The translations under genes and the position numbers were made by a program. The notes beneath the pieces are model-generated. The model did not search any database. It was not told the DNA's origin and worked only from the letters and a program-made list of their open reading frames with translations. A DNA stretch of 38,794 nt from assembly GCA_022563315.1 (NCBI GenBank), contig JADFNO010000014.1, positions 1 through 38,794 of the forward strand, read 5' to 3'. Below are positions 24,291 to 35,357 of this stretch, in pieces (within the stretch, counting starts at the first letter, position 1; every line of letters begins with the position of its first letter). The DNA comes from Planctomycetota bacterium. Its GTDB lineage: Bacteria > Planctomycetota > Phycisphaerae > Phycisphaerales > SM1A02.

Positions 24291-24320
24291 ACAGATCAAC
24301 ACGAATGGACACAGATGTGG
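24291..24320. repeat. Degenerate 10-base tandem repeat
   Basis: Three consecutive 10-base units, ACAGATCAAC, ACGAATGGAC and ACAGATGTGG, keep an AC-GAT core at a 10-base period. They lie in the 283-base region between the DUF456 gene and the Crp/Fnr regulator. A short hairpin (TCCCGAT/ATCGGGA) follows at about 24352-24368. Similar ACACAGAT strings recur in intergenic DNA of planctomycetes and relatives as far as I recall. Confidence 0.4.
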
Positions 24321-24518
24321 AAGACCGCGATAGCCGTCCCGGTTTCACGAGTCCCGATTCCATCGGGATCGAGAGCAACCAGTGGATTCGCTCAAACCCT
24401 TTCAACGATCCGCCGCGCCACAGGCCCGTTTAGCCGCGAGCTGAAGGCGATCTCTCCGGTGAGCGCATACACTCGGTCGCACGGCAACGCGCCGGTCGAT
24501 GGCCACGTAAAAGTTTTC

Positions 24519-25130
24519 ATGATTGGCATATGCATGCCTGCCAAGATTTCCGCTCATGTCCAGCAACGGTTTCGAGAGGCGATGGAGCAGGGAACCGCGA
24601 TTCCCGAGCCCGAATGGCAGCACCTGATGGAACATGTGGGTGTGACGATTCTACCTTGCGGTTCGATGCTGTTTCGTGAAGGCGATGTCGTTCGTCGCCT
24701 GTACTTCATCGCGCGCGGACTTCTGCGCTTGTTCTGGACGAACAGCAACGGACGCGAGATTAATTCCGGGTTCGATTACGAAGATCGTTTCATGACCGAC
24801 GTAGCGAGCTTCTTCACCGGCGTTCCCGCCCGATTCGCTATTCAGGCGCTGGAAGACTGCGAATTACTGTATCTTGACCATGCAACCTACGAACATCTGT
24901 TGACGCGTCACGTGTGTTGGGAGCGACTGTGGCGTCGCCAGCTTGAGACACAATTCGTGCGCAAAGTGGACAAGGAATGTCGCATCCGTACCTTGACTGC
25001 TCAGCAGCGGTATCGCTTACTGGTGAACCAGGCGTCACCGTTGCTCGAACGTGTGCCACAGTATCACTTGGCGTCGTATCTCGGCATCGCGCCGGAGACA
25101 CTGAGCAGAATCAGGGCGAGGAACTGGTGA
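24519..25130 (+). CDS. Crp/Fnr family transcriptional regulator
   Basis: The protein has about 203 residues. A cyclic-nucleotide-binding-type beta barrel covers residues 30-130 (ILPCGSMLFREGDVVRRLYF, FIARGLLRLFWTNSNGREIN, RFAIQALEDCELLYLDHATY). A C-terminal DNA-binding part follows, with TLTAQQRYRLLVNQASPLLE and the recognition helix region YHLASYLGIAPETLSRIRAR. There is no cysteine cluster for an iron-sulfur centre and the cAMP-contacting residues are not conserved, so the ligand is unknown. The frame opens at 24315; ATG 24519 or 24534 fits the family. It ends 77 bases before a serine hydrolase on the same strand, its nearest candidate target. Confidence 0.87.
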   Translation: MIGICMPAKISAHVQQRFREAMEQGTAIPEPEWQHLMEHVGVTILPCGSMLFREGDVVRRLYFIARGLLRLFWTNSNGREINSGFDYEDRFMTDVASFFTGVPARFAIQALEDCELLYLDHATYEHLLTRHVCWERLWRRQLETQFVRKVDKECRIRTLTAQQRYRLLVNQASPLLERVPQYHLASYLGIAPETLSRIRARNW

Positions 25131-25207
25131 TCTTGACCAAAATCAAGCGACCGGTTCGGAACAAGCATGTAGGATTCGACGCAGTCATATGCAATGGAGA
25201 TTACCTC

Positions 25208-26665
25208 ATGCGCGCTTACAGGACGATTTCATTCGTCGCGAGTGGTTTGCTTGCCTTTTGTGTGACTTTCTCGACCAGTGCCGCAGAGGATCCTGGTCGC
25301 AATGCGTGGCGGCAGTACGCCTCACCGGAAGAAGCAGGCTTCTCGAGCGAACGTCTGGAAGAGGCATACGCCAGCGCCGAAGAAGCTGGCTCGGCGGCGA
25401 TCATGGCCATTTACAACGGTCGCGTCGTCGTGGCATGGGGCGACATCGAACGACCGTTCAAGTGTCACAGCGTGCGCAAGAGCATTCTCAGCGCACTCTA
25501 TGGAACACACGTCGCGGCCGGGCGGATCGATCTCAACGCGACGCTGGCGGACCTCGGCATCAATGACATCGAACCGCTGTCGGACGAGGAGAAGACGGCC
25601 CGTATCGCCGACCTGCTCACTGCGCGCTCGGGTGTATATCATCGCGCCGCCAAGGAGCCGGCGGGAATGAGTCGCAATCGCCCGGCGCGGCATTCGCACA
25701 AGCCCGGCGAGCACTTCTGGTACAACAACTGGGACTTCAACACGCTCGGCACGATCTATCATCAGCTCACTGGTGAGCCCGTGATCGAGTCGTTTCAACA
25801 GCATTTCGCAGACCCACTGGGCATGCAGGATTTCATCCCCGAGCACGGTTCGTACGAGCTGGAGCCGAGGCGCTCGAAACACCCCGCTTATGCATTTCGT
25901 CTCTCAGCGCGCGATCTGGCACGATTCGGTCTGATGATCGCCCAAGGGGGGCGGTGGGGCGATGAACGGATCGTTCCCGAAAGTTGGATCACCCAAAGCA
26001 CACGCACGCACTCGACCTTCGATAATTTGCGTGGATACGGATACATGTGGTGGATCTACCCCGCCGGGTCGACCTCAAGCTACGAAACGGTCAACAAATA
26101 CGATGTGTTCTCGGCGATCGGTACCGGTGGGCAATTGGTGATCGTAATACCGGAAGCGAAGTTCGTGTTGGTCCATCGCGGCGACACCGACAATCGTCGT
26201 AAACGAGTCACCGACGGACTTGTCTGGCAGATTCTAGAGATGATTCTGAGCGCCAAGACAGGCGACGCCAAGACAGCCCCGGCGCTGACCGATGTCACCC
26301 CGGTACCGTTGCCTGGTGCGCTCCCGGCGCCACCGACGCGAACAGCCATCGACCTCGATCCTGCGAAAATACGGGAGTACATCGGCACGTATGCCAACGA
26401 GGAGACGATGACGATGGAGTTGTACGAGTATGCCGGTCGGCTGTTCGGGCAGACGAATGATGGAAGGGAAGCCGAAATCTTCGCCGAGGCTGCGGATAAG
26501 CTCTTCCTCAAGAACGCCGATGTTCAACTACGAATCCTGCGCGATGAGACCGGTCGCATCACTGATGCTGAGGTCACCATGATGGGTCAGACCCTGAAAC
26601 TTCCTAGAGTATCTTCGGGAATCGACGACTCGCTTTCCAGTCTGGGTAACTCGGCCGCTAAATAG
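25208..26665 (+). CDS. Exported serine hydrolase, beta-lactamase/class C family
   Basis: A 485-residue protein with a signal peptide (TISFVASGLLAFCVTFSTSA). The class C/DD-peptidase-like catalytic domain has S88-x-x-K91 (CHSVRKSILSALYG) and Y172-N-N174 (WYNNWDFNTLG), and a KTG-equivalent region near GTGGQLVIVIPE. Such proteins act as esterases, peptidases or amidases in the envelope; true beta-lactamase activity is not implied. A C-terminal region after about residue 390 (IREYIGTYANEETMTMELYE) is a small beta domain often found behind these catalytic domains. GGAG precedes the ATG by eight bases. The frame is open upstream to 24977, overlapping the regulator, but that part is not protein-like. 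Confidence 0.88.
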   Translation: MRAYRTISFVASGLLAFCVTFSTSAAEDPGRNAWRQYASPEEAGFSSERLEEAYASAEEAGSAAIMAIYNGRVVVAWGDIERPFKCHSVRKSILSALYGTHVAAGRIDLNATLADLGINDIEPLSDEEKTARIADLLTARSGVYHRAAKEPAGMSRNRPARHSHKPGEHFWYNNWDFNTLGTIYHQLTGEPVIESFQQHFADPLGMQDFIPEHGSYELEPRRSKHPAYAFRLSARDLARFGLMIAQGGRWGDERIVPESWITQSTRTHSTFDNLRGYGYMWWIYPAGSTSSYETVNKYDVFSAIGTGGQLVIVIPEAKFVLVHRGDTDNRRKRVTDGLVWQILEMILSAKTGDAKTAPALTDVTPVPLPGALPAPPTRTAIDLDPAKIREYIGTYANEETMTMELYEYAGRLFGQTNDGREAEIFAEAADKLFLKNADVQLRILRDETGRITDAEVTMMGQTLKLPRVSSGIDDSLSSLGNSAAK

Positions 26666-26763: not shown

Positions 26764-27336
26764 ATGACGCAGGACAAAGAGCGATACGCCGATCCACGCA
26801 GCGACGCCCAACTCGTCGACGCGGCCGATACCGGTGATCTCCAAGCCTTCGCCGCGCTGTACAACCGCCATCGACGGTGGGTCGTTGATCTTGCTTTTCG
26901 ATTCACAAATGACCCTGAGCAATCGCTGGATGTGCTTCAGCAGACCTTCGAGTATTTTCTGCGCAAGTTCCCCGGCTTTCAGCTGCAGTCGAATATGAGG
27001 ACATTCCTCTACCCGGTCGTACGCCACATCGCGATTTCAATGCAACGCCAGGCTCGTCGAATGACGTACCTGCGCGACCTTCCTCCAACGGCGGCCGCAT
27101 CCACCAATCCTGACGCAGCCGAAGTTCGCGAACAGCTCGCTGCGATCGTCAACAACCTTCCTCCCGGTCAACGCGAGGTTGTGTTCCTCCGTTATGTTGA
27201 TTGTCTTTCGCTTCAAGGAATCGCCACCGTGATGAATATCCCGCTGGGGACCGTCAAATCGCGGCTACATCACGCTTTGACCGCCCTTCGAGCCGACGAA
27301 ATTACAAAAAAATATTTTGAGGAGTTCCGGCAGTGA
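26764..27336 (+). CDS. ECF-type RNA polymerase sigma factor heading the dockerin/VWA operon
   Basis: A 190-residue sigma-70 family protein. Region 2 includes LYNRHRRWVVDLAFRFTNDP, SLDVLQQTFEYFLRKFPGF and RTFLYPVVRHIAISMQRQ. Region 4 includes LPPGQREVVFLRYVDCLSLQ, GIATVMNIPLGTVKSRLHHA and a lysine-containing end. The ATG at 26764 follows a 98-base gap after the serine hydrolase and presumably its own promoter. The next gene, 53 bases on, encodes a one-TM protein whose cytoplasmic half could hold the sigma factor, so this is likely the output of a surface-sensing operon. Confidence 0.92.
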   Translation: MTQDKERYADPRSDAQLVDAADTGDLQAFAALYNRHRRWVVDLAFRFTNDPEQSLDVLQQTFEYFLRKFPGFQLQSNMRTFLYPVVRHIAISMQRQARRMTYLRDLPPTAAASTNPDAAEVREQLAAIVNNLPPGQREVVFLRYVDCLSLQGIATVMNIPLGTVKSRLHHALTALRADEITKKYFEEFRQ

Positions 27337-27389
27337 ACCTTTCGGCCAGTTCGGCGCTTCATATACGGAGGCCCCCGGAGTAACCACCA

Positions 27390-27860
27390 GTGGACCAGCT
27401 CTCACCACAGGATCTAGAACCAAAAGGCGAGCAGCTTCAACAGTTCCGCAAGGACCTTACGTCCCTCACATCCGGTCATATCAAGATTCCGCAGGAAGTG
27501 GACCAAGCTGTGCTTCGAAAGGCGGCTACAGCGCTCGCTCGGACCGAGCGCACCCGGTTCACCTATGGCAAGCCCATCGCTTGGCTCGCTGCCGCCGCTT
27601 CATTGACTCTGGTCGTCTGGATCAGCGGGCTGTTTCGATCATCGACCACAACGCCGTTGCAGGCGACCGTCGCTTCTACACCCGGCGATCTCGATCGCAA
27701 CGGCCGGGTGGACATCCTCGATGCGTTTCAACTCGCTCGGGAACTCGATAACGACATCGCTCCGACCGCCGGCGACATCAATGCCGACGGCGTCATCGAT
27801 CGCGCCGATGTCGAAGCGATCGCGATGAAAGCCGTCACATTGGAGCAGGGAGCAAGCTGA
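27390..27860 (+). CDS. Single-TM protein with an extracytoplasmic dockerin-like calcium-loop pair
   Basis: A 156-residue protein from a GTG start (GGAG about ten bases upstream). Residues 1-60 are a charged, helical cytoplasmic part (LQQFRKDLTSLTSGH, VDQAVLRKAATALARTERTR), in the place where an anti-sigma domain would sit. Residues 62-82 are a membrane helix (PIAWLAAAASLTLVVWISGL). Residues 99-150 hold two EF-hand-like loops, DLDRNGRVDILD at 100-111 and DINADGVIDRAD at 129-140, each followed by a helix: the layout of type I dockerins. Its stop overlaps the next ATG by one base. Dockerins bind cohesins on partner proteins. The union of a candidate anti-sigma N-terminus, TM helix and dockerin is unusual. 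Confidence 0.8.
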   Translation: MDQLSPQDLEPKGEQLQQFRKDLTSLTSGHIKIPQEVDQAVLRKAATALARTERTRFTYGKPIAWLAAAASLTLVVWISGLFRSSTTTPLQATVASTPGDLDRNGRVDILDAFQLARELDNDIAPTAGDINADGVIDRADVEAIAMKAVTLEQGAS

Positions 27861-28306
27861 TGCGAACGCTCGCACCCATTTGCATCGCTGCACTCTTGGC
27901 TGTCACCATCGTGTGCGCTCAAGACGATGTGCAATCAGTTCGCTTCGACGCCATTGACGTTTACGTTCAGACTGGTGACCGACCGTTGGCAGCGTATCAA
28001 CTCGATCTCTCGGCCGCGAAAGGGGATGTCACAATCGTCGGCATCGAAGGCGGCCAGTCGGAGGTCTTCACCGCTCCGCCCTACTACGACCCCGCGGCAA
28101 TACAAAATGATCGCGTCATCATCGCCTCCTTTTCAACCGCGGCTGCCGACGCACTGCCGCGCGGAAAGGTGCGCATCGCCACGATCCACGTGCAAATCGT
28201 CGGCGATATCGAGCCGGAGTATGACGCAACGATCACCGTCGCCGCAACAGTCGATGGCGAACCAATCGACGCTGAACTCATCCTTGAAACGGGACCAACG
28301 CAATGA
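27860..28306 (+). CDS. Small exported beta-rich protein, possibly cohesin-like
   Basis: A 148-residue protein with a cleavable signal peptide (LAPICIAALLAVTIVCAQ). The mature part is a series of beta strands: VRFDAIDVYVQTGDRPLAAY, QLDLSAAKGDVTIVGIEGG, a turn PPYYDPAAI, VIIASFSTAA and GKVRIATIHVQIVGD. This order (hydrophobic strand, AYQLDL, VTIVGIEGG, YDP, ASFST, G.VRIATIHV) resembles the cohesin/CBM jelly-roll used in dockerin partners, but I would not assign it without a structure or profile match. It overlaps the dockerin gene by one base and the VIT/VWA gene by four, so the three products are probably made together and may bind each other. Confidence 0.65.
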   Translation: MRTLAPICIAALLAVTIVCAQDDVQSVRFDAIDVYVQTGDRPLAAYQLDLSAAKGDVTIVGIEGGQSEVFTAPPYYDPAAIQNDRVIIASFSTAAADALPRGKVRIATIHVQIVGDIEPEYDATITVAATVDGEPIDAELILETGPTQ

Positions 28307-30489
28307 ACAAGTTGTTTGAGTTTCTCTCAATGGCGTTCCTGTTGCTAATGCTGAACGCAGTCTTACTCCTTACTGGATGTGCGGTGGATTCCCATTTCGA
28401 CCCTTCCCTTTCAAAGAGCAGTCGGAACTACGAACGAGGCTTGGTGGATTCAAGGGCCAGCAGACAGGTTGTGGTCCGCTCGCAGATTGAGTTGCTTTTT
28501 GGTGGCGGCGGAACGAGCAAGAGACTTGCGGAACAGGCTCCCCCCGGCTCACTCCCGTCGCTCGATGAAGAAGTCTGGGTGATCGTCAAGCCCAAACGGA
28601 CCGCACAACCTACCAAGACCGACGACATCCCCGGCTCCGGCGTACTCATGTGCCGCATACCGGTCAATAATGTCATCACCAACGTCGCGTTGCCGCTCAG
28701 TCACACCGATGTCGCCGTCTCCATCAGTGCGTACATCGCGTCCGTTGAAGTCACCCAGGAATTCCACAATCCCTACGACGAGAAGATCGAAGCGGTCTAC
28801 GTCTTCCCCCTGCCGCAAAACGCAGCCGTCAACGGCTTCATCATGACCATCGGCGAGCGCAAGATCCGCGGCATCATCCGTGAGCGCGAGCAAGCGCAGC
28901 GCATTTACAACGAAGCGAAACGCCAAGGCTACGTCGCCTCACTGCTCACTCAAGAGCGAGCCAACATCTTCACGCAGCATGTTGCCAACATCGAACCGGG
29001 CAAGCGCATCGACGTCAACATCACCTACTTCCATACGCTCACCTATGACGACGGCTGGTACGAGTTCGTCTATCCAATGGTCGTCGGCCCGCGCTTTAAT
29101 CCGCCCGGCTCCACGCAAGGCGTCGGTTCCGTCGCGCGCGGTAGAGTCGGTATCTCCGGCCAACAGACCGAACTCCAGTACCTGAGCCCCAATGAGCGCA
29201 GCGGACATGACATTTCGCTTGCTGTGGATATCAACGCAGGCGTCACCATCGAAGAAATCAATAGCGTCAATCACAAGATCAATGTCAGTCGTGAAATGTC
29301 TGAGCAAATGCGCGTCGAGCTCGATCCCAACGATGCCATTCCTAACAAGGATTTCGTGCTGCGTTACCGAGTGGCCGGCGATCAAGTCAAGACCGCCCTG
29401 CTCACGCATCGTGATCCCTCTGGCGGGGGTGGATACTTCACGTTCATGCTCTATCCGCCGCAGGATATCTCCAATCGCCCACGACAACCGATGGAGATGA
29501 TCTTCGTCATGGATTGCTCCGGCTCCATGTCAGGTCAACCCATCGCGCAGTCCAAGGACGCTGTGCGGCACGCGCTTGGATGTCTTGAGCCACAAGACAC
29601 CTTCCAGATCATTCGTTTTTCCAACAGCACGTCTCAGCTCGGCCGTCAACCTCTGCCCGCCACGGCGAAGAACGTTCGTCGCGGCAAACAGTACGTCGCC
29701 AACCTTTCCGGGGGCGGCGGCACGATGATGATCAAAGGCATCAAGGCTGCGTTGGACTTCCCCCATGATCCTGAGCGACTACGCTTCGTCACATTCCTGA
29801 CTGATGGATATATCGGAAACGAATCTGAAATCCTTGCGGCTGTTCACGATCAACTCGGTTCGGCTCGCGTCTTCAGCTTCGGCGTCGGTTCGTCGCCCAA
29901 TCGTTATCTGATGAACCGCATGGCCAAGCTCGGCCGAGGCGCGGTCGCCTACCTCAGCCTTAATGACGACGGCGCGAAGGTCATGGACAACTTCTTTCAC
30001 CGGGTCAGCCAGCCGGTATTGATGGATATCACCATCGATTGGGGGAACATGCGTGTGGCCGACGTGATACCAGCGCGCACGCCGGACCTCTTTGTCGGTC
30101 GCCCCGTGATCGTCACTGGCCGATTCGATGGCGATGATCCCACAACCATTCGCATCAAGGGAAGAACCGCCCAGGGAATCGTCGAAGCGAGTTTTGACGT
30201 CAATCCGATCGACGCCGCTAACGAACACCGAGCGCTACCCGCAGTGTGGGCGCGCAATTACATCGCGCAGCTCGTCGACCGCGCAACTTACGATGCCAAC
30301 GTTGAACTGCCGCAACAGATCACGGAGATCGCGCTGAACTACAACCTGATGTCCGCCTACACGAGCTTCGTTGCCGTCGATTCCAAGACACGCACCGCCG
30401 GCGATCGCGGAACCACCGTCAACGTTGCTGTGCCTGTTCCCGACGGTGTTCGCTATGACACGACTGTGCGAAGCGACGGCACGCACTGA
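28303..30489 (+). CDS. VIT and VWA domain lipoprotein
   Basis: A 728-residue protein with a signal and lipobox (LLTGC at about residues 22-26), so it is probably lipid-anchored. A VIT domain spans about residues 125-245 (IASVEVTQEFHNPYDEKIEA, YVFPLPQNAAVNGFIMTIGE). A von Willebrand A domain starts near residue 398 with an intact metal site: DCSGS at 404-408, a threonine in GGGGTMM, and an aspartate in LTDGY. A beta-rich C-terminal region of about 150 residues follows. The VIT+VWA layout is that of inter-alpha-trypsin-inhibitor heavy chains and of bacterial surface proteins, where the domains mediate adhesion or protein assembly. It is the last gene of the sigma-dockerin operon, and overlaps its upstream neighbour by four bases. 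Confidence 0.92.
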   Translation: MNKLFEFLSMAFLLLMLNAVLLLTGCAVDSHFDPSLSKSSRNYERGLVDSRASRQVVVRSQIELLFGGGGTSKRLAEQAPPGSLPSLDEEVWVIVKPKRTAQPTKTDDIPGSGVLMCRIPVNNVITNVALPLSHTDVAVSISAYIASVEVTQEFHNPYDEKIEAVYVFPLPQNAAVNGFIMTIGERKIRGIIREREQAQRIYNEAKRQGYVASLLTQERANIFTQHVANIEPGKRIDVNITYFHTLTYDDGWYEFVYPMVVGPRFNPPGSTQGVGSVARGRVGISGQQTELQYLSPNERSGHDISLAVDINAGVTIEEINSVNHKINVSREMSEQMRVELDPNDAIPNKDFVLRYRVAGDQVKTALLTHRDPSGGGGYFTFMLYPPQDISNRPRQPMEMIFVMDCSGSMSGQPIAQSKDAVRHALGCLEPQDTFQIIRFSNSTSQLGRQPLPATAKNVRRGKQYVANLSGGGGTMMIKGIKAALDFPHDPERLRFVTFLTDGYIGNESEILAAVHDQLGSARVFSFGVGSSPNRYLMNRMAKLGRGAVAYLSLNDDGAKVMDNFFHRVSQPVLMDITIDWGNMRVADVIPARTPDLFVGRPVIVTGRFDGDDPTTIRIKGRTAQGIVEASFDVNPIDAANEHRALPAVWARNYIAQLVDRATYDANVELPQQITEIALNYNLMSAYTSFVAVDSKTRTAGDRGTTVNVAVPVPDGVRYDTTVRSDGTH

Positions 30490-30543: not shown

Positions 30544-31212
30544 TCATTGCCTGTCCACGACCATGATCTGCTCCAGCGATTTGCGCTGTAGATCGGGCAC
30601 GACGCAATCGTCCGCGGGATAACCGATGGGAATCAACAGGAACGGCCGTTCGTAGCTGGGGCGCTTGAGAATCGGGCCGAGGAACTTCATCGGGCTAGGT
30701 GTGTGCGTCAGCGCGACAAGGCCGGCAACGTGGGTCGCAGCGAGTAGCATCCCCACCGCGATGCCGACGGATTCGTTGACGTAATACACCTGATCCGAGG
30801 GATTGTTGGGATCGTCATCCTTCATCAGCTTGAAGACGACAATGAGCCAGGGGGCGATCTCCAGGAACGGCTTGTGCTCATCGGTGCCGATGGCGCGCAG
30901 ATCGTCTAGCCACTGCTCGTTGGCCCGGCGGTAATAGAACTCGCGTTCCTCGGCCTCGGCCCCTTCGCGAATCTCCTTTTTCAGAGCCGGGTCCTGCACA
31001 GCCACGAACCGCCACGGCTGTTTGTTGGCTCCGCTTGGCGCAGTCCCAGCCGCGAGGATGAGGTTCTCGATGACCTCACGCGGCAGCGCGCGATCGGAGA
31101 AGAACCGCACGGATCGGCGTTGGTTGAGGATTTCATAGAACCGCCGGGCCGCGTCGGCCGGATCGGTATCAGCCGGTTCAGGCTTGTATGGGATGAAGGT
31201 CAGTTCAGCCAT
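30544..31212 (-). CDS. Nitroreductase-family flavoprotein, iodotyrosine-deiodinase-like
   Basis: A 222-residue FMN enzyme. RRSVRFF near residue 32 and the segment AAGTAPSGANKQPWRFV bind FMN. E89, Y93 and K114 (AEEREFYYRR ... DEHKPFLE) have the same spacing (4 and 21 residues) as the Glu-Tyr-Lys lid that binds iodotyrosine in iodotyrosine deiodinases, and EIAPWLIVVFK follows as in bacterial members of that branch. It should therefore dehalogenate halotyrosines or act on a similar zwitterionic substrate; the real substrate in this organism is unknown. The frame is open to 31272, but the ATG at 31212 gives the family N-terminus. It diverges from the first 680-residue paralogue, 39 bases between starts. 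Confidence 0.87.
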   Translation of the reverse strand: MAELTFIPYKPEPADTDPADAARRFYEILNQRRSVRFFSDRALPREVIENLILAAGTAPSGANKQPWRFVAVQDPALKKEIREGAEAEEREFYYRRANEQWLDDLRAIGTDEHKPFLEIAPWLIVVFKLMKDDDPNNPSDQVYYVNESVGIAVGMLLAATHVAGLVALTHTPSPMKFLGPILKRPSYERPFLLIPIGYPADDCVVPDLQRKSLEQIMVVDRQ

Positions 31213-31251
31213 GCGTTGGGTACCATGTCTGGGGGAATCGAGAGGTCGCCA

Positions 31252-33294
31252 ATGCCGACATCGTATCCACAATCTCTACAGCACCGCCGATCGTGGGTGA
31301 TAAGAATCTTCATGTGGCGCTGGATCGGTGTATTGGTGATTCTCACTGCATTGATCGCGTCAAACGGTGTTCACGCCCAAAGCGCCAAGAACGCGGCGAC
31401 GTGGTACCGTCGCGCGATCGACGCGTATGAGTCGCTCCCCACTGACGTGAAGAAGTCACTTTGGGAGTTCGACTGGTCGAATCCGAACGCCCCGATCTCC
31501 GACGAATTCCGCCTGGCGTTGGCGCGGGTTCAGCCGGTGCTTCGCCTGGCGCATCGCGGCGCGAGACAGGGTTACAGCGACTTCGACCTGGATTACGCCC
31601 AGGGGGTCGAACTGCTGCTGCCGCACCTTTCATCGATGCGCGGCATCACCTGGGCTATGCACAACGACGCGTTGTTGCGCCTGCGCGACGGCGATACAGC
31701 GGGCGCTGCTGCCGCAGTGGCGTCGATCTACCGTATGGGTGGTCACCTCAGCAGCGATCGCATCATCATCAGCTCGATGGTAGGACAGGCGCTCTTCAGC
31801 GCGGGAGAGATGGTCGCCCAGGCGGGCGTGGACCGCGCCGCGTTCACACCCGATGACAGCGCGACGATGATGGAGGCACTGAGAGATTTCAGTGAGACCG
31901 ATCCCTTTGAGTATGTCGAAGCGATCGCGATGGAGCAGGAGATCATGATCGAGTGGATGGCGGAGAAGTACGCCGGTGAAGGCGGAAGGGAGCAGCTTGC
32001 CGACGACTTCGGCCTGGACGACGAGAATGCTGCGGAACAAAACGAACAACTCGCCGCGATGACCGAGGAGGAGTTCTACGGGTCGCTTGATCAGGTCGAT
32101 CAGCTCATGAACCGGGTCATCGAAGCGTTCAGCGATCCTGATCAGGACGCGGGCCGAGCCGCGATGGCAAAGATCACTGAGGAAATCAGCGCCGGTGAAC
32201 ACGGCGTTATGGCTACGGTGATGGTCCCAGCCTACAACAGGATCTTCGATAAAATGCACATGGCTGAGCAACGGCTCGCCGATCGAAGAGCTTCGTTGGC
32301 GCTGCTCATGACGGGCGAACTCTCGCCGAGAGCCGGGGCGAACGCGGTGATATTTTATCTGCGGGCGATCACGCTGCTGGAAGAGATCGACCCTGAGCAG
32401 CGCAAGCAGTGGCCCGCTTTGGCGGCGAAACCTGATGAACCGATCGACGAAGATGTGGTCAAGTCGCTCACCGACGCTGATCCGATTATTACCTTGCTGC
32501 GTGAGGCGTCGCACACGGCTCGTTGCGATTTCTCAGCGGTTCGAGGTCGCTGGGCGCTGGCCATCCCCGCCTATCTACCTGGTTTTCGGGAGCTGGCGAA
32601 CCTGCTCGTCGCCGATGCCGATCGTCTCTTGCAGGTTGGAGAAGCGGATGCGGCCGTCGATCGACTGGAGATTTGCTACCGCATGTCGGCCCACCTCGCG
32701 ACGGACGGCGTGATCACCAGCGCGCTGGTGTCGCACGACATGTTCAACGCTGCCGCTGCAATCGTGCAGCGAGAACTGACCCAGGCGTTCTTTGAGGATG
32801 TGCATCGGGAACTGCTGCATCAGGCGCTGGGGACGATGAGTCGAAAGGATCCATTTGGGTATATCGCGGGCATTACTAGTGCGCGCAAGAGAATTGAAGA
32901 ATGGCTCAGCGATCGGAGGCAAAGTAGCGCTGCGCCACAACTCGATCTTGGCGAATTCGCGCGTGGCAGGGACATCGATCAATTGCTGGCGTGGATGGTC
33001 GCGCTTCGGCACATTCAAGACGTCTTCGATTGGCCGGAAGCGACCACGGATTCGTTGGCGCCGCTGGATGGATTGCTTGCGCTTGACGCGGTCGCCGTGG
33101 TGGCTGAGCAATCGGCCCAGATCAGTGCAGCGATACAAGCCGGCAACGTCGAAGCGATTTTAGATCGCGAGTTCCCGCCGATCGCCCGGGTTCGCGAGCA
33201 ATTAGCCCGAGCGCGAGCTGATCTGCGCCGCAGCGTTGGGGTCGTCAAACCTGCTCGGGTGCGAACTGCGGCCGAGCCCGTGCTCGGCAATTAA
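31252..33294 (+). CDS. Large exported helical protein, tandem paralogue 1
   Basis: A 680-residue protein with a signal sequence (WIGVLVILTALIASNGVHA) and otherwise almost all helix. It has two homologous halves: VASIYRMGGHLSSDRIIISS plus DFSETDPFEYVEAIA in the first, and LEICYRMSAHLATDGVITSA plus TMSRKDPFGYIAGIT in the second. Each half begins with a variant of LRLAHRGARQGYSDFDLDYA / ITLLREASHTARCDFSAV. The repeated pattern is common in planctomycete hypothetical proteins and may form a solenoid. No catalytic motif is seen. Start: AGAGG six bases before the ATG. It is followed 20 bases later by a same-length paralogue. The role is unknown; a periplasmic scaffold is one possibility. Confidence 0.8.
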   Translation: MPTSYPQSLQHRRSWVIRIFMWRWIGVLVILTALIASNGVHAQSAKNAATWYRRAIDAYESLPTDVKKSLWEFDWSNPNAPISDEFRLALARVQPVLRLAHRGARQGYSDFDLDYAQGVELLLPHLSSMRGITWAMHNDALLRLRDGDTAGAAAAVASIYRMGGHLSSDRIIISSMVGQALFSAGEMVAQAGVDRAAFTPDDSATMMEALRDFSETDPFEYVEAIAMEQEIMIEWMAEKYAGEGGREQLADDFGLDDENAAEQNEQLAAMTEEEFYGSLDQVDQLMNRVIEAFSDPDQDAGRAAMAKITEEISAGEHGVMATVMVPAYNRIFDKMHMAEQRLADRRASLALLMTGELSPRAGANAVIFYLRAITLLEEIDPEQRKQWPALAAKPDEPIDEDVVKSLTDADPIITLLREASHTARCDFSAVRGRWALAIPAYLPGFRELANLLVADADRLLQVGEADAAVDRLEICYRMSAHLATDGVITSALVSHDMFNAAAAIVQRELTQAFFEDVHRELLHQALGTMSRKDPFGYIAGITSARKRIEEWLSDRRQSSAAPQLDLGEFARGRDIDQLLAWMVALRHIQDVFDWPEATTDSLAPLDGLLALDAVAVVAEQSAQISAAIQAGNVEAILDREFPPIARVREQLARARADLRRSVGVVKPARVRTAAEPVLGN

Positions 33295-33314
33295 GTGAAG
33301 TCGAAAGGTCGCCA

Positions 33315-35357
33315 ATGCCTACATCCGATCCGCAATCTCTACAGCGCCGCCGATCGTTCGTGAGGAGAATCTTCACGTGGCGACGCATCGGTGTGTTGAC
33401 GATCCTCACTGTGTTGATCGCGTCAGATCGTGTCCACGCCCAAAGCGCCAAAAACGGCGCGACGTGGTACGCCAAAGCTATCGCGCAATACGGTTCGATA
33501 TCCAATAACGACATCGAAACGATCGTCGACTTCGACTGGGGTGATCCAAGCGCGCCGATTACTGCTGAGTTGCGCGCGGCGCTGGCGCGGGTTCAGCCTG
33601 TTCTGCGGTTGGCGCAGCGTGGTACACGCCAGGAATATAGTGATTTCGACCTCGATTATAGCCAGGGATTCGACCTCCAATTGCCTCACCTTGGTCGGCT
33701 CCGAGGTCTTACCCAGCTCATGCGTACGGATGCGATGATTCGTATGCGCGATGGTGATGCCGCAGCGGCGGCGGCTGGGATCTCATCGATCTATCGCATG
33801 GGCGCGCATCTGAATAACGATCAGACCATCATCAGCTCATTGGTCGGCATGGCCATATTCGGTGCGGGCGATCATGTTGCCCAAGTTGGGATTGATCGAG
33901 GCGCATTCTCGGGAGACGACGCCCAGACAATCTTCAGCGCGCTGGAAAGTCTTAGTCCGACTGACCCATTTGATCTTGGTGAAGCGATCGGGATGGAGCG
34001 AGAGATCATGACGATGTGGATGGCGGACCAATTCGCCACCGAAGAAGGCCGGGCGAGAATTGCAGGATCATTCGTTCTCGGCGTCAATGATAATGAACTG
34101 CAAACCGAGCTCAGACTGATGGATCAAGAGACGTTTGACGAACAGCTCCTGGAAGTCGATAACTTGATGTCGCAAGTCGTGGGCGCCTTCATGGATCCGG
34201 ACCGAGATGCAGGCCGTGCCAAACTCAAGCAGATCACTGAGAAGATCGAAAACGGCGAGGTGGGATTGTTGGCGCGCGCGACCATACCAGCGCTCGATCA
34301 CGCATTCGACAACATGCTGGCATCGGAAGAGAAGCTGCGCAATCGCCTGGCGTCGCTTGCGCCGCTGATCACCGGCGCGGTGGCGCCGAAAGAAATCGCC
34401 AACGCGGCCGTGTGGTATCTGCGGGCGATCGAGATGCTGGCCGAGTTGGAACCGGAAGCTCGATTGCAATGGCACGCGCTCGGCGCGGACCCGGATTTCC
34501 AAATCACCAAGGAGGCTGCCACGTCGTTGGACGGTGTTGATTCAATCATCTCGACGCTTCGGGAAGGATCGCACATGACGCGCTGTGAGTTTACGTTGCT
34601 CCTGCCCAAACAAGTGGTTGCAATTCCCGTGTATCTGCCGGGCTTGCGCGAACTGGCGAATCTTCTTCACGCCGAGGCGGTGTATCGGTTCCAAGTCGGT
34701 GAGATTGAGTTAGCTGTAGATCGCCTGGAGATTTGCCTTCGTATGTCCGCGCACCTGGGAGGCGATCAGACCATTACGACCTCACTGATTTCCCATCTTC
34801 TGTTCGAGGGCGCGGCGAGGCTCTTGCAACACAAGCTGATGCTCGCGTTGCTGGAGGACGATCAATTCAGCGCGCTGCGCGCTGCGCTCGAACAAACCAG
34901 CCGTAAGGATCCGTTCGGATACATCGCGTCGATCATCGCCGCTCGGGAAAGTGTTCGCTATTGGTTCATCGGGATGCTCAGGGCTGATGATGAAACACAG
35001 AAGCGGGTGCGGGAGGTCACGCAGGAATGGGACGCACAGCGACTGCTAGCACTCTTGGCGATTCGTAACGCCGGCCCGTGGAAGATGACATGGGTCGCCG
35101 AGGCTGAACCCAAAAAGCTATCGCCGCTCGCGGATGTGATATCGCTCGACGCTTTTGCCGCAGCTGCTTCACATGTCGAGCCTGTCCAAGAGGCGCTTGC
35201 TGCCCGTGATGTCGAACCACTATCCAAGCGAGCGCTACCGCGAATCATGGGGTCGCTGCGACAACAGTTAACCAACGCCCGGCGCGACGTGCGTGAGGTT
35301 GCAAGGGCGCTTAAGGCACACCAACGAGAAGTGCAGCCCATCGATTTGGGCAACTGA
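33315..35357 (+). CDS. Large exported helical protein, tandem paralogue 2
   Basis: Also 680 residues and clearly a duplicate of the preceding gene. The leader (MPTSDPQSLQRRRSFVRRIF), signal region (VHAQSAKNGATWYAKAI) and the two homologous halves (ISSIYRMGAHLNNDQTIISS; LEICLRMSAHLGGDQTITTS) all align without large gaps. The last 90 residues are much less alike between the two copies than the rest. AAAGG sits six bases upstream of the ATG in the same context (GGTCGCCAATG) as in copy 1, so the duplicated unit includes the ribosome binding site. The two genes are probably co-transcribed. Function is unknown. Confidence 0.8.
   Translation: MPTSDPQSLQRRRSFVRRIFTWRRIGVLTILTVLIASDRVHAQSAKNGATWYAKAIAQYGSISNNDIETIVDFDWGDPSAPITAELRAALARVQPVLRLAQRGTRQEYSDFDLDYSQGFDLQLPHLGRLRGLTQLMRTDAMIRMRDGDAAAAAAGISSIYRMGAHLNNDQTIISSLVGMAIFGAGDHVAQVGIDRGAFSGDDAQTIFSALESLSPTDPFDLGEAIGMEREIMTMWMADQFATEEGRARIAGSFVLGVNDNELQTELRLMDQETFDEQLLEVDNLMSQVVGAFMDPDRDAGRAKLKQITEKIENGEVGLLARATIPALDHAFDNMLASEEKLRNRLASLAPLITGAVAPKEIANAAVWYLRAIEMLAELEPEARLQWHALGADPDFQITKEAATSLDGVDSIISTLREGSHMTRCEFTLLLPKQVVAIPVYLPGLRELANLLHAEAVYRFQVGEIELAVDRLEICLRMSAHLGGDQTITTSLISHLLFEGAARLLQHKLMLALLEDDQFSALRAALEQTSRKDPFGYIASIIAARESVRYWFIGMLRADDETQKRVREVTQEWDAQRLLALLAIRNAGPWKMTWVAEAEPKKLSPLADVISLDAFAAAASHVEPVQEALAARDVEPLSKRALPRIMGSLRQQLTNARRDVREVARALKAHQREVQPIDLGN

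Follow-up and report, generated by a model that had tools for sequence, protein, structure and literature searches.

ECF (extracytoplasmic function) sigma factors with class I anti-sigma factors, such as SigW–RsiW, RpoE–RseA and CnrH–CnrY, combine a small two-domain sigma with a neighbouring one-transmembrane protein that holds it through an inner sigma-binding part. We analysed a stretch of 38,794 nucleotides from a Planctomycetota bacterium (contig JADFNO010000014.1, hereafter the window), in which a comparable pair opens a four-gene operon on the plus strand, encoding a sigma factor, a membrane protein with an outer dockerin, a small exported protein and a lipoprotein with VIT and VWA domains. 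The likeness to the described pairs extends to a zinc motif in orthologues of the dockerin protein and to a compact sigma in a predicted model, whereas the outer part here is a dockerin presumably holding a separate cohesin protein, and of the anti-sigma domain the window copy retains no more than the end. We consider it reasonably probable (about 0.64) that the operon encodes an ECF sigma/membrane anti-sigma pair in which a separate, exported cohesin protein forms the sensing half.

To our knowledge, nearly all that is known of cohesin–dockerin pairs concerns their use as clasps in the assembly of enzyme complexes, and the role of the scattered non-cellulosomal pairs is an open question. If the reading holds, this would be the first use of the clasp in transmembrane signalling, and the conserved operon would give the non-cellulosomal clasp a concrete and testable job, namely to connect an anti-sigma factor with a partner protein that is exported. 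In its logic, the system comes closest to SigI/RsgI biomass sensing in cellulosome-forming clostridia, where a membrane anti-sigma factor also bears an outer recognition module and the hosts use cohesins and dockerins elsewhere; however, the sigma is of another type, and the RsgI sensor (carbohydrate-binding module, PA14 or GH10) is covalently attached and binds polysaccharide, with no dockerin on an RsgI anti-sigma factor described in these two papers (PMC4711584; PMC3413522). The proposed 'planctosome' likewise assigns non-cellulosomal cohesin and dockerin modules to planctomycetes without cellulose degradation, but it was proposed for extracellular peptidase complexes and has no tie to a sigma/anti-sigma pair (PMC6461901). 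The VIT/VWA protein of the window resembles the TIGR03788 sortase-target proteins over its full length, yet it scores 524 bits against a curated cut-off of 551.65, is a lipoprotein instead of a sortase target and is located in this operon. In the open-access papers searched for dockerins or cohesins together with anti-sigma factors, ECF factors, VWA domains or planctomycetes, no earlier description of this system was found, in agreement with an earlier note on the window, which knew of no described system of this composition.

The sigma factor and the inner part of the dockerin protein

The features of the first three genes are as follows.

26764..27336, + strand: ECF sigma factor, 190 amino acids (Pfam Sigma70_r2 5.6e-11, r4_2 7.9e-16; TIGR02937 2.4e-24)
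27390..27860, + strand: putative membrane anti-sigma factor with C-terminal dockerin, 156 amino acids, GTG start (Dockerin_1 3.4e-07; orthologues with Hx3Cx2C and NF052375 matches)
27390..27575, + strand: cytoplasmic part, residues 1-62, probable remnant of an anti-sigma domain, zinc part absent (alignment with zinc-bearing orthologues; L049 model)
27576..27632, + strand: transmembrane helix, residues 63-81 (hydropathy 1.95 over 19 residues)
27681..27821, + strand: dockerin domain, residues 98-144 (PF00404, Dockerin_1, 3.4e-07)
27687-27722 and 27774-27809, + strand: calcium loops of the dockerin (loop check, each 6/6)
27860..28306, + strand: exported protein of predicted cohesin fold, 148 amino acids, domain about 27932-28294 (profile matches; orthologue model against cohesins)

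The VIT/VWA lipoprotein gene (28303-30489) shares 4 bases (28303-28306) with the gene of the small protein, which in turn shares 1 base (27860) with the dockerin gene, so the positions of the open reading frames (ORFs) bear out the four frames, strand and overlaps reported earlier. The unit is limited to these four genes, since the gene 3' of the VIT/VWA gene (30544-31272) lies on the opposite strand and the gene 5' of the sigma gene is not the same in loci L001 and L002 as in the window. The sigma factor contains sigma-70 regions 2 and 4 only, without region 3, as defines ECF factors, and its matches to Pfam r2, r4 and TIGR02937 are all over their cut-offs.

The dockerin protein, whose GTG start is also kept in L001 and L002, contains a single hydrophobic stretch (residues 63-81), and its residues 1-62 comprise two helices flanking a conserved P-x-x-V/L-D motif (IPQEVDQAVL). 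No family match was found for these inner ~62 residues in searches of Pfam and NCBIfam with the window protein. The zinc anti-sigma motif Hx3Cx2C is present in the main-group orthologues L052 (HVDRCAEC), L053 (HAEACGEC) and L097 (HVRECAEC) as well as in the divergent-group orthologues L064-L069; L067 and L069 also score above the cut-off of zf-HC2. In addition, the NCBI model NF052375 ('anti-sigma factor') spans the inner part and transmembrane helix of L052 (3.2e-11), L053 (1.4e-08) and L067 (2.1e-08), all below its cut-off of 100 bits. Between the zinc-bearing orthologues and the window copy, the alignment takes in the two helices on either side of P-x-x-VD as well as the transmembrane segment. 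Because orthologues with Hx3Cx2C or NF052375 matches align through the same helices and membrane segment, the window copy resembles a class I anti-sigma factor that has lost its zinc part, retaining only the end of the four-helix class I (ASDI) domain, which consists of a three-helix bundle and helix 4. Class I anti-sigma factors without zinc make up ~44% of the set surveyed, and zinc-less and mixed groups are common (PMC7406223). Judged by its relatives, the dockerin protein would be an anti-sigma factor by descent. The earlier note had come to the same assignment, which the zinc anti-sigma domain and NF052375 matches of the orthologues strengthen, while the 60-residue cytoplasmic part that it described has to be corrected to only the end of such a domain.

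To model the sigma/anti-sigma pair, the sigma and dockerin protein of L049 were read through in frame, with the two intervening stops read as glycine (predicted local distance difference test (pLDDT) 82.7, predicted template modelling score (pTM) 0.62). The modelled sigma is compact as in SigW–RsiW (Z 12.3, root-mean-square deviation (rmsd) 4.3 over 158), and the comparison with CnrH–CnrY gave Z 11.6 and rmsd 3.5 over 151; most RNA-polymerase-bound sigmas fit the model only at ~26 Å. Residues 104-228 of the model can be aligned with some LuxR-type DNA-binding domains, a hint that a helix of the anti-sigma part packs on sigma region 4. We take the model as support, not proof, for a sigma held by its anti-sigma factor.

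The window dockerin carries two complete calcium loops, DLDRNGRVDILD and DINADGVIDRAD, each followed by a helix as in type I dockerins. This pair is not kept in all orthologues: L007, L050, L056, L059, L062, L064, L065 and L068 have lost loop 1 and L097 has lost loop 2, but at least one repeat still shows the helix motif DI(L/V)DA(F/Y/L)xLA or a close variant. In the divergent-group proteins of L067 and L069, a long predicted coiled coil lies between the transmembrane helix and the dockerin, perhaps as a spacer across the periplasm.

The small exported protein and its probable link to the dockerin

A Pfam search of the window small protein alone gave no match, and PF00963, at E values up to 1, matched four of the 24 family members (best E 0.0012), not including that of the window. 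The structural comparison was made with an orthologue, for which the dockerin and small protein of L045 were read through as one chain and folded from an alignment of five paired rows; MAFFT mixtures of dockerin-only and cohesin-only rows were not used, as these aligned the wrong domains together. The resulting model has pLDDT >90 over most of residues 161-273 and a pTM of 0.70. Foldseek returned cohesins as its top matches in the PDB, and in VIA-align cohesins filled the first 46 rows (Z from 10.1 down to 7.3), with no unrelated chain above 7.0. Residues 145-273 of the model match the cohesin fold, a nine-stranded jelly roll (rmsd 2.8 over 120 at Z up to 10.1), and the dockerin part matches dockerin 8ajy chain B with Z 6.6. 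The small protein is accordingly described here as a predicted cohesin, and the earlier description of it as beta-rich and cohesin-like is confirmed by the match of the orthologue's predicted structure to cohesins.

In the usual arrangement, the anti-sigma/dockerin protein and the cohesin are encoded by separate genes. L048 is a natural fusion, in which the dockerin is followed directly by the cohesin in a single ORF. In L107 and L071, the anti-sigma part and transmembrane helix run directly into the cohesin with no dockerin found in the fused proteins, and the sigma gene upstream and VIT/VWA gene downstream are kept; L058 may be a third fusion of anti-sigma and cohesin. These natural fusions argue that the clasp serves to hold the cohesin on the anti-sigma factor, so that docking is probably a standing link, with the signal itself elsewhere and sensed further out. 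Separate genes, a dockerin–cohesin fusion and loss of the dockerin together form a natural series, which shows how a sensor link may pass from non-covalent to covalent.

Conservation of the gene order and the VIT/VWA lipoprotein

A scan with the VIT/VWA protein detected eleven loci, most with the same gene order. The small-protein profile detected a single copy in each of 31 planctomycete genomes out of 392, and it also matched 16 of 61 relatives and 5 of the 241 genomes from the phylum to which L010, labelled Verrucomicrobiales, belongs. Two of these last five (L099 and L100) are in unrelated contexts and were left uncounted, being weak cohesin-profile matches inside other proteins with no sigma or dockerin gene nearby. 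The tally comprises 49 loci from two phyla (the window, L001-L011, L042-L071, L097, L098, L101 and L104-L107). Encoding beside the sigma gene, a property of class I anti-sigma factors, is widely kept: in 38 of the 49 loci, a sigma gene precedes it in the same orientation, in 2 (L045 and L057) the sigma gene is divergent but adjacent, the contig ends too soon in 6, and in 3 the sigma gene is absent despite sufficient room (L004, L044 and L063). A dockerin is present in 44 loci, including the single repeat of L063, which was judged by eye. Downstream, 39 loci carry a VIT/VWA gene and 2 a YfbK-type VWA gene (L066 by Pfam; L067 by eye, the gene being cut by the contig end), whereas 7 have neither and 1 leaves no room. 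The earlier note had proposed looking for this gene order in other planctomycetes, and these counts establish its conservation; a recurrence across dozens of distant genomes is not due to chance.

The features of the fourth gene are as follows.

28303..30489, + strand: VIT/VWA lipoprotein, 728 amino acids, lipobox cysteine at residue 26 (VIT 3.6e-36, VWA_3 2.1e-16; TIGR03788 524 bits)
28699..29028, + strand: VIT domain, residues 133-242 (PF08487)
29494..29943, + strand: VWA domain, residues 398-547, with intact metal ion-dependent adhesion site (MIDAS) (PF13768)

The MIDAS residues can be read directly from the sequence as DCSGS (29512-29526), T474 (29722-29724) and D501 (29803-29805), and the lipobox is LTGC; together with the Pfam matches, these residues verify the lipoprotein with VIT, VWA and intact MIDAS that had been noticed earlier. 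TIGR03788 matches occur in 365 of 392 planctomycete genomes (E 1e-3), and the presence of a VIT/VWA gene was rejected as an operon marker on account of this near-universal distribution. Neither a dockerin nor a cohesin was found upstream in 20 regions with a VIT/VWA gene but without a cohesin match. The operon-linked VIT/VWA proteins form one clade (100/100), with two unlinked rows inside and 19 others outside. The divergent group lacks the VIT/VWA protein or has a YfbK-type VWA protein in its place (e.g., L066), and the occupation of the same slot by two VWA families suggests that a VWA partner belongs to the function of the operon. The operon also offers a candidate function for planctomycete VIT/VWA lipoproteins.

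Several loci carry further genes at this end of the operon. On the reverse strand of L056 (7981-11118, strand coordinates), an extra long lipoprotein, apparently a second VIT protein, is encoded between the cohesin and VIT/VWA genes. Lipoprotein genes apparently of one family follow the cohesin gene in L043 (1798-2787) and L065 (7315-8106; strand coordinates for both), the latter occupying the usual place of the VIT/VWA gene. The unlinked VIT/VWA genes of L077, L079 and L086 are preceded by genes for a one-transmembrane protein whose outer part is FecR-like and for an exported protein, possibly a second sensor arrangement with VIT/VWA.

Proposed mechanism, alternative readings and neighbouring genes

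In the mechanism that we propose, the inner part of the dockerin protein (~60 residues) would keep sigma inactive at the membrane, as its descent and the L049 model suggest. The cohesin-fold protein would occupy the outer dockerin to give one standing transmembrane unit, for which fold, fusions and gene order argue, and in a few lineages the clasp would have been exchanged for a plain covalent fusion. The weakest step is the next, in which the cohesin might feel the VIT/VWA lipoprotein or its MIDAS-bound ligand: binding, loss or pulling of this partner could alter the anti-sigma factor and free sigma, probably by exposing the anti-sigma factor to regulated proteolysis as in other one-transmembrane anti-sigma factors. 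The freed sigma would then turn on its own operon and further targets. The VIT/VWA protein may touch the cohesin, with adhesion as a conceivable signal. For the full picture of a split membrane sensor, in which an anti-sigma factor carries a sensing protein clipped on by cohesin and dockerin, exchangeable in principle, and lets transcription respond to the state of a VIT/VWA surface protein, we put the odds at about even.

A number of observations weigh against these proposals. The likeness of the small protein to cohesins is weak by sequence, the top two PDB profile matches being cohesins but not significant (E 0.35). The models were compared by fold alone, so both the sigma/anti-sigma and the dockerin/cohesin interface are putative; the linkers of the L049 model are of low confidence (pLDDT ~50), its chain contains stop codons read as glycine, and the compact shape may also be possible for an ECF sigma modelled alone. 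No shared ECF promoter was evident by eye 5' of the sigma genes in 32 loci. In mirror-tree comparisons, the correlation between cohesin and VIT is no more than suggestive (partial r 0.39, p 0.025), and that between cohesin and dockerin is weak and not decisive (r 0.24, p 0.07). Furthermore, the VIT/VWA protein is not obligatory, since seven loci have room downstream but no VWA gene (L057, L063-L065 and L068-L070).

The earlier note had the outer part of the anti-sigma factor read by calcium-dependent docking of the small protein and/or the VWA lipoprotein; on this view, attachment of the cohesin to the dockerin and its release, governed by calcium, would themselves be the signal. The two canonical calcium loops of the window protein and the placement of the two halves on separate genes in most loci would fit such a signal, whereas the losses listed above affect either loop and make gating by calcium less convincing, and the cohesin is covalently fixed in L048, L071 and L107. 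In view of both the loop losses and the fusions, docking as a switched, calcium-read event is less likely; the claim is not supported as stated, and we regard it as rather unlikely. The same three fusions would abolish a titration sensor, in which abundant other exported dockerin proteins pull a shared cohesin off the anti-sigma factor and their supply is reported. About ten other dockerin proteins are encoded on large ORFs of the same genome, and PF00963 reveals no other cohesin there, as titration would have it, but this family misses the cohesin of the operon as well, so other cohesins may be hidden; we see in titration a slightly slimmer prospect than in calcium-read docking. The least probable of these alternatives, in our opinion, is that the dockerin protein only anchors the cohesin and VWA proteins to the inner membrane and that sigma is merely their transcription activator. 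Such a role would suit an inner part without zinc motif or family match, as in the window, yet orthologues with full anti-sigma domains align via the same P-x-x-VD motif and transmembrane helix, and zinc-less class I anti-sigma factors are, as cited above, common. We retain the anti-sigma factor with a clipped-on cohesin as the preferred reading.

The other dockerin matches of this genome (G000) lie on large ORFs in ten other contigs (C92, C193, C21, C41, C68, C103, C55, C145, C101 and C183), and it is possible that these proteins are further partners of the operon's cohesin; the PF00963 search of G000 detected no cohesin. Downstream of the operon, positions 31120-35357 of the window encode, in tandem, two exported paralogues (724 and 680 amino acids) with near-identical N-termini, for which no Pfam family was found above cut-off. 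Upstream, genes for a Crp-like and a beta-lactamase-family protein (24315-26665) are located between an upstream block and the sigma gene. L001 and L002 are without these genes, and their sigma gene follows ~280 bases after the same upstream block; the Crp-like/beta-lactamase-family stretch beside the operon is an insertion or deletion.

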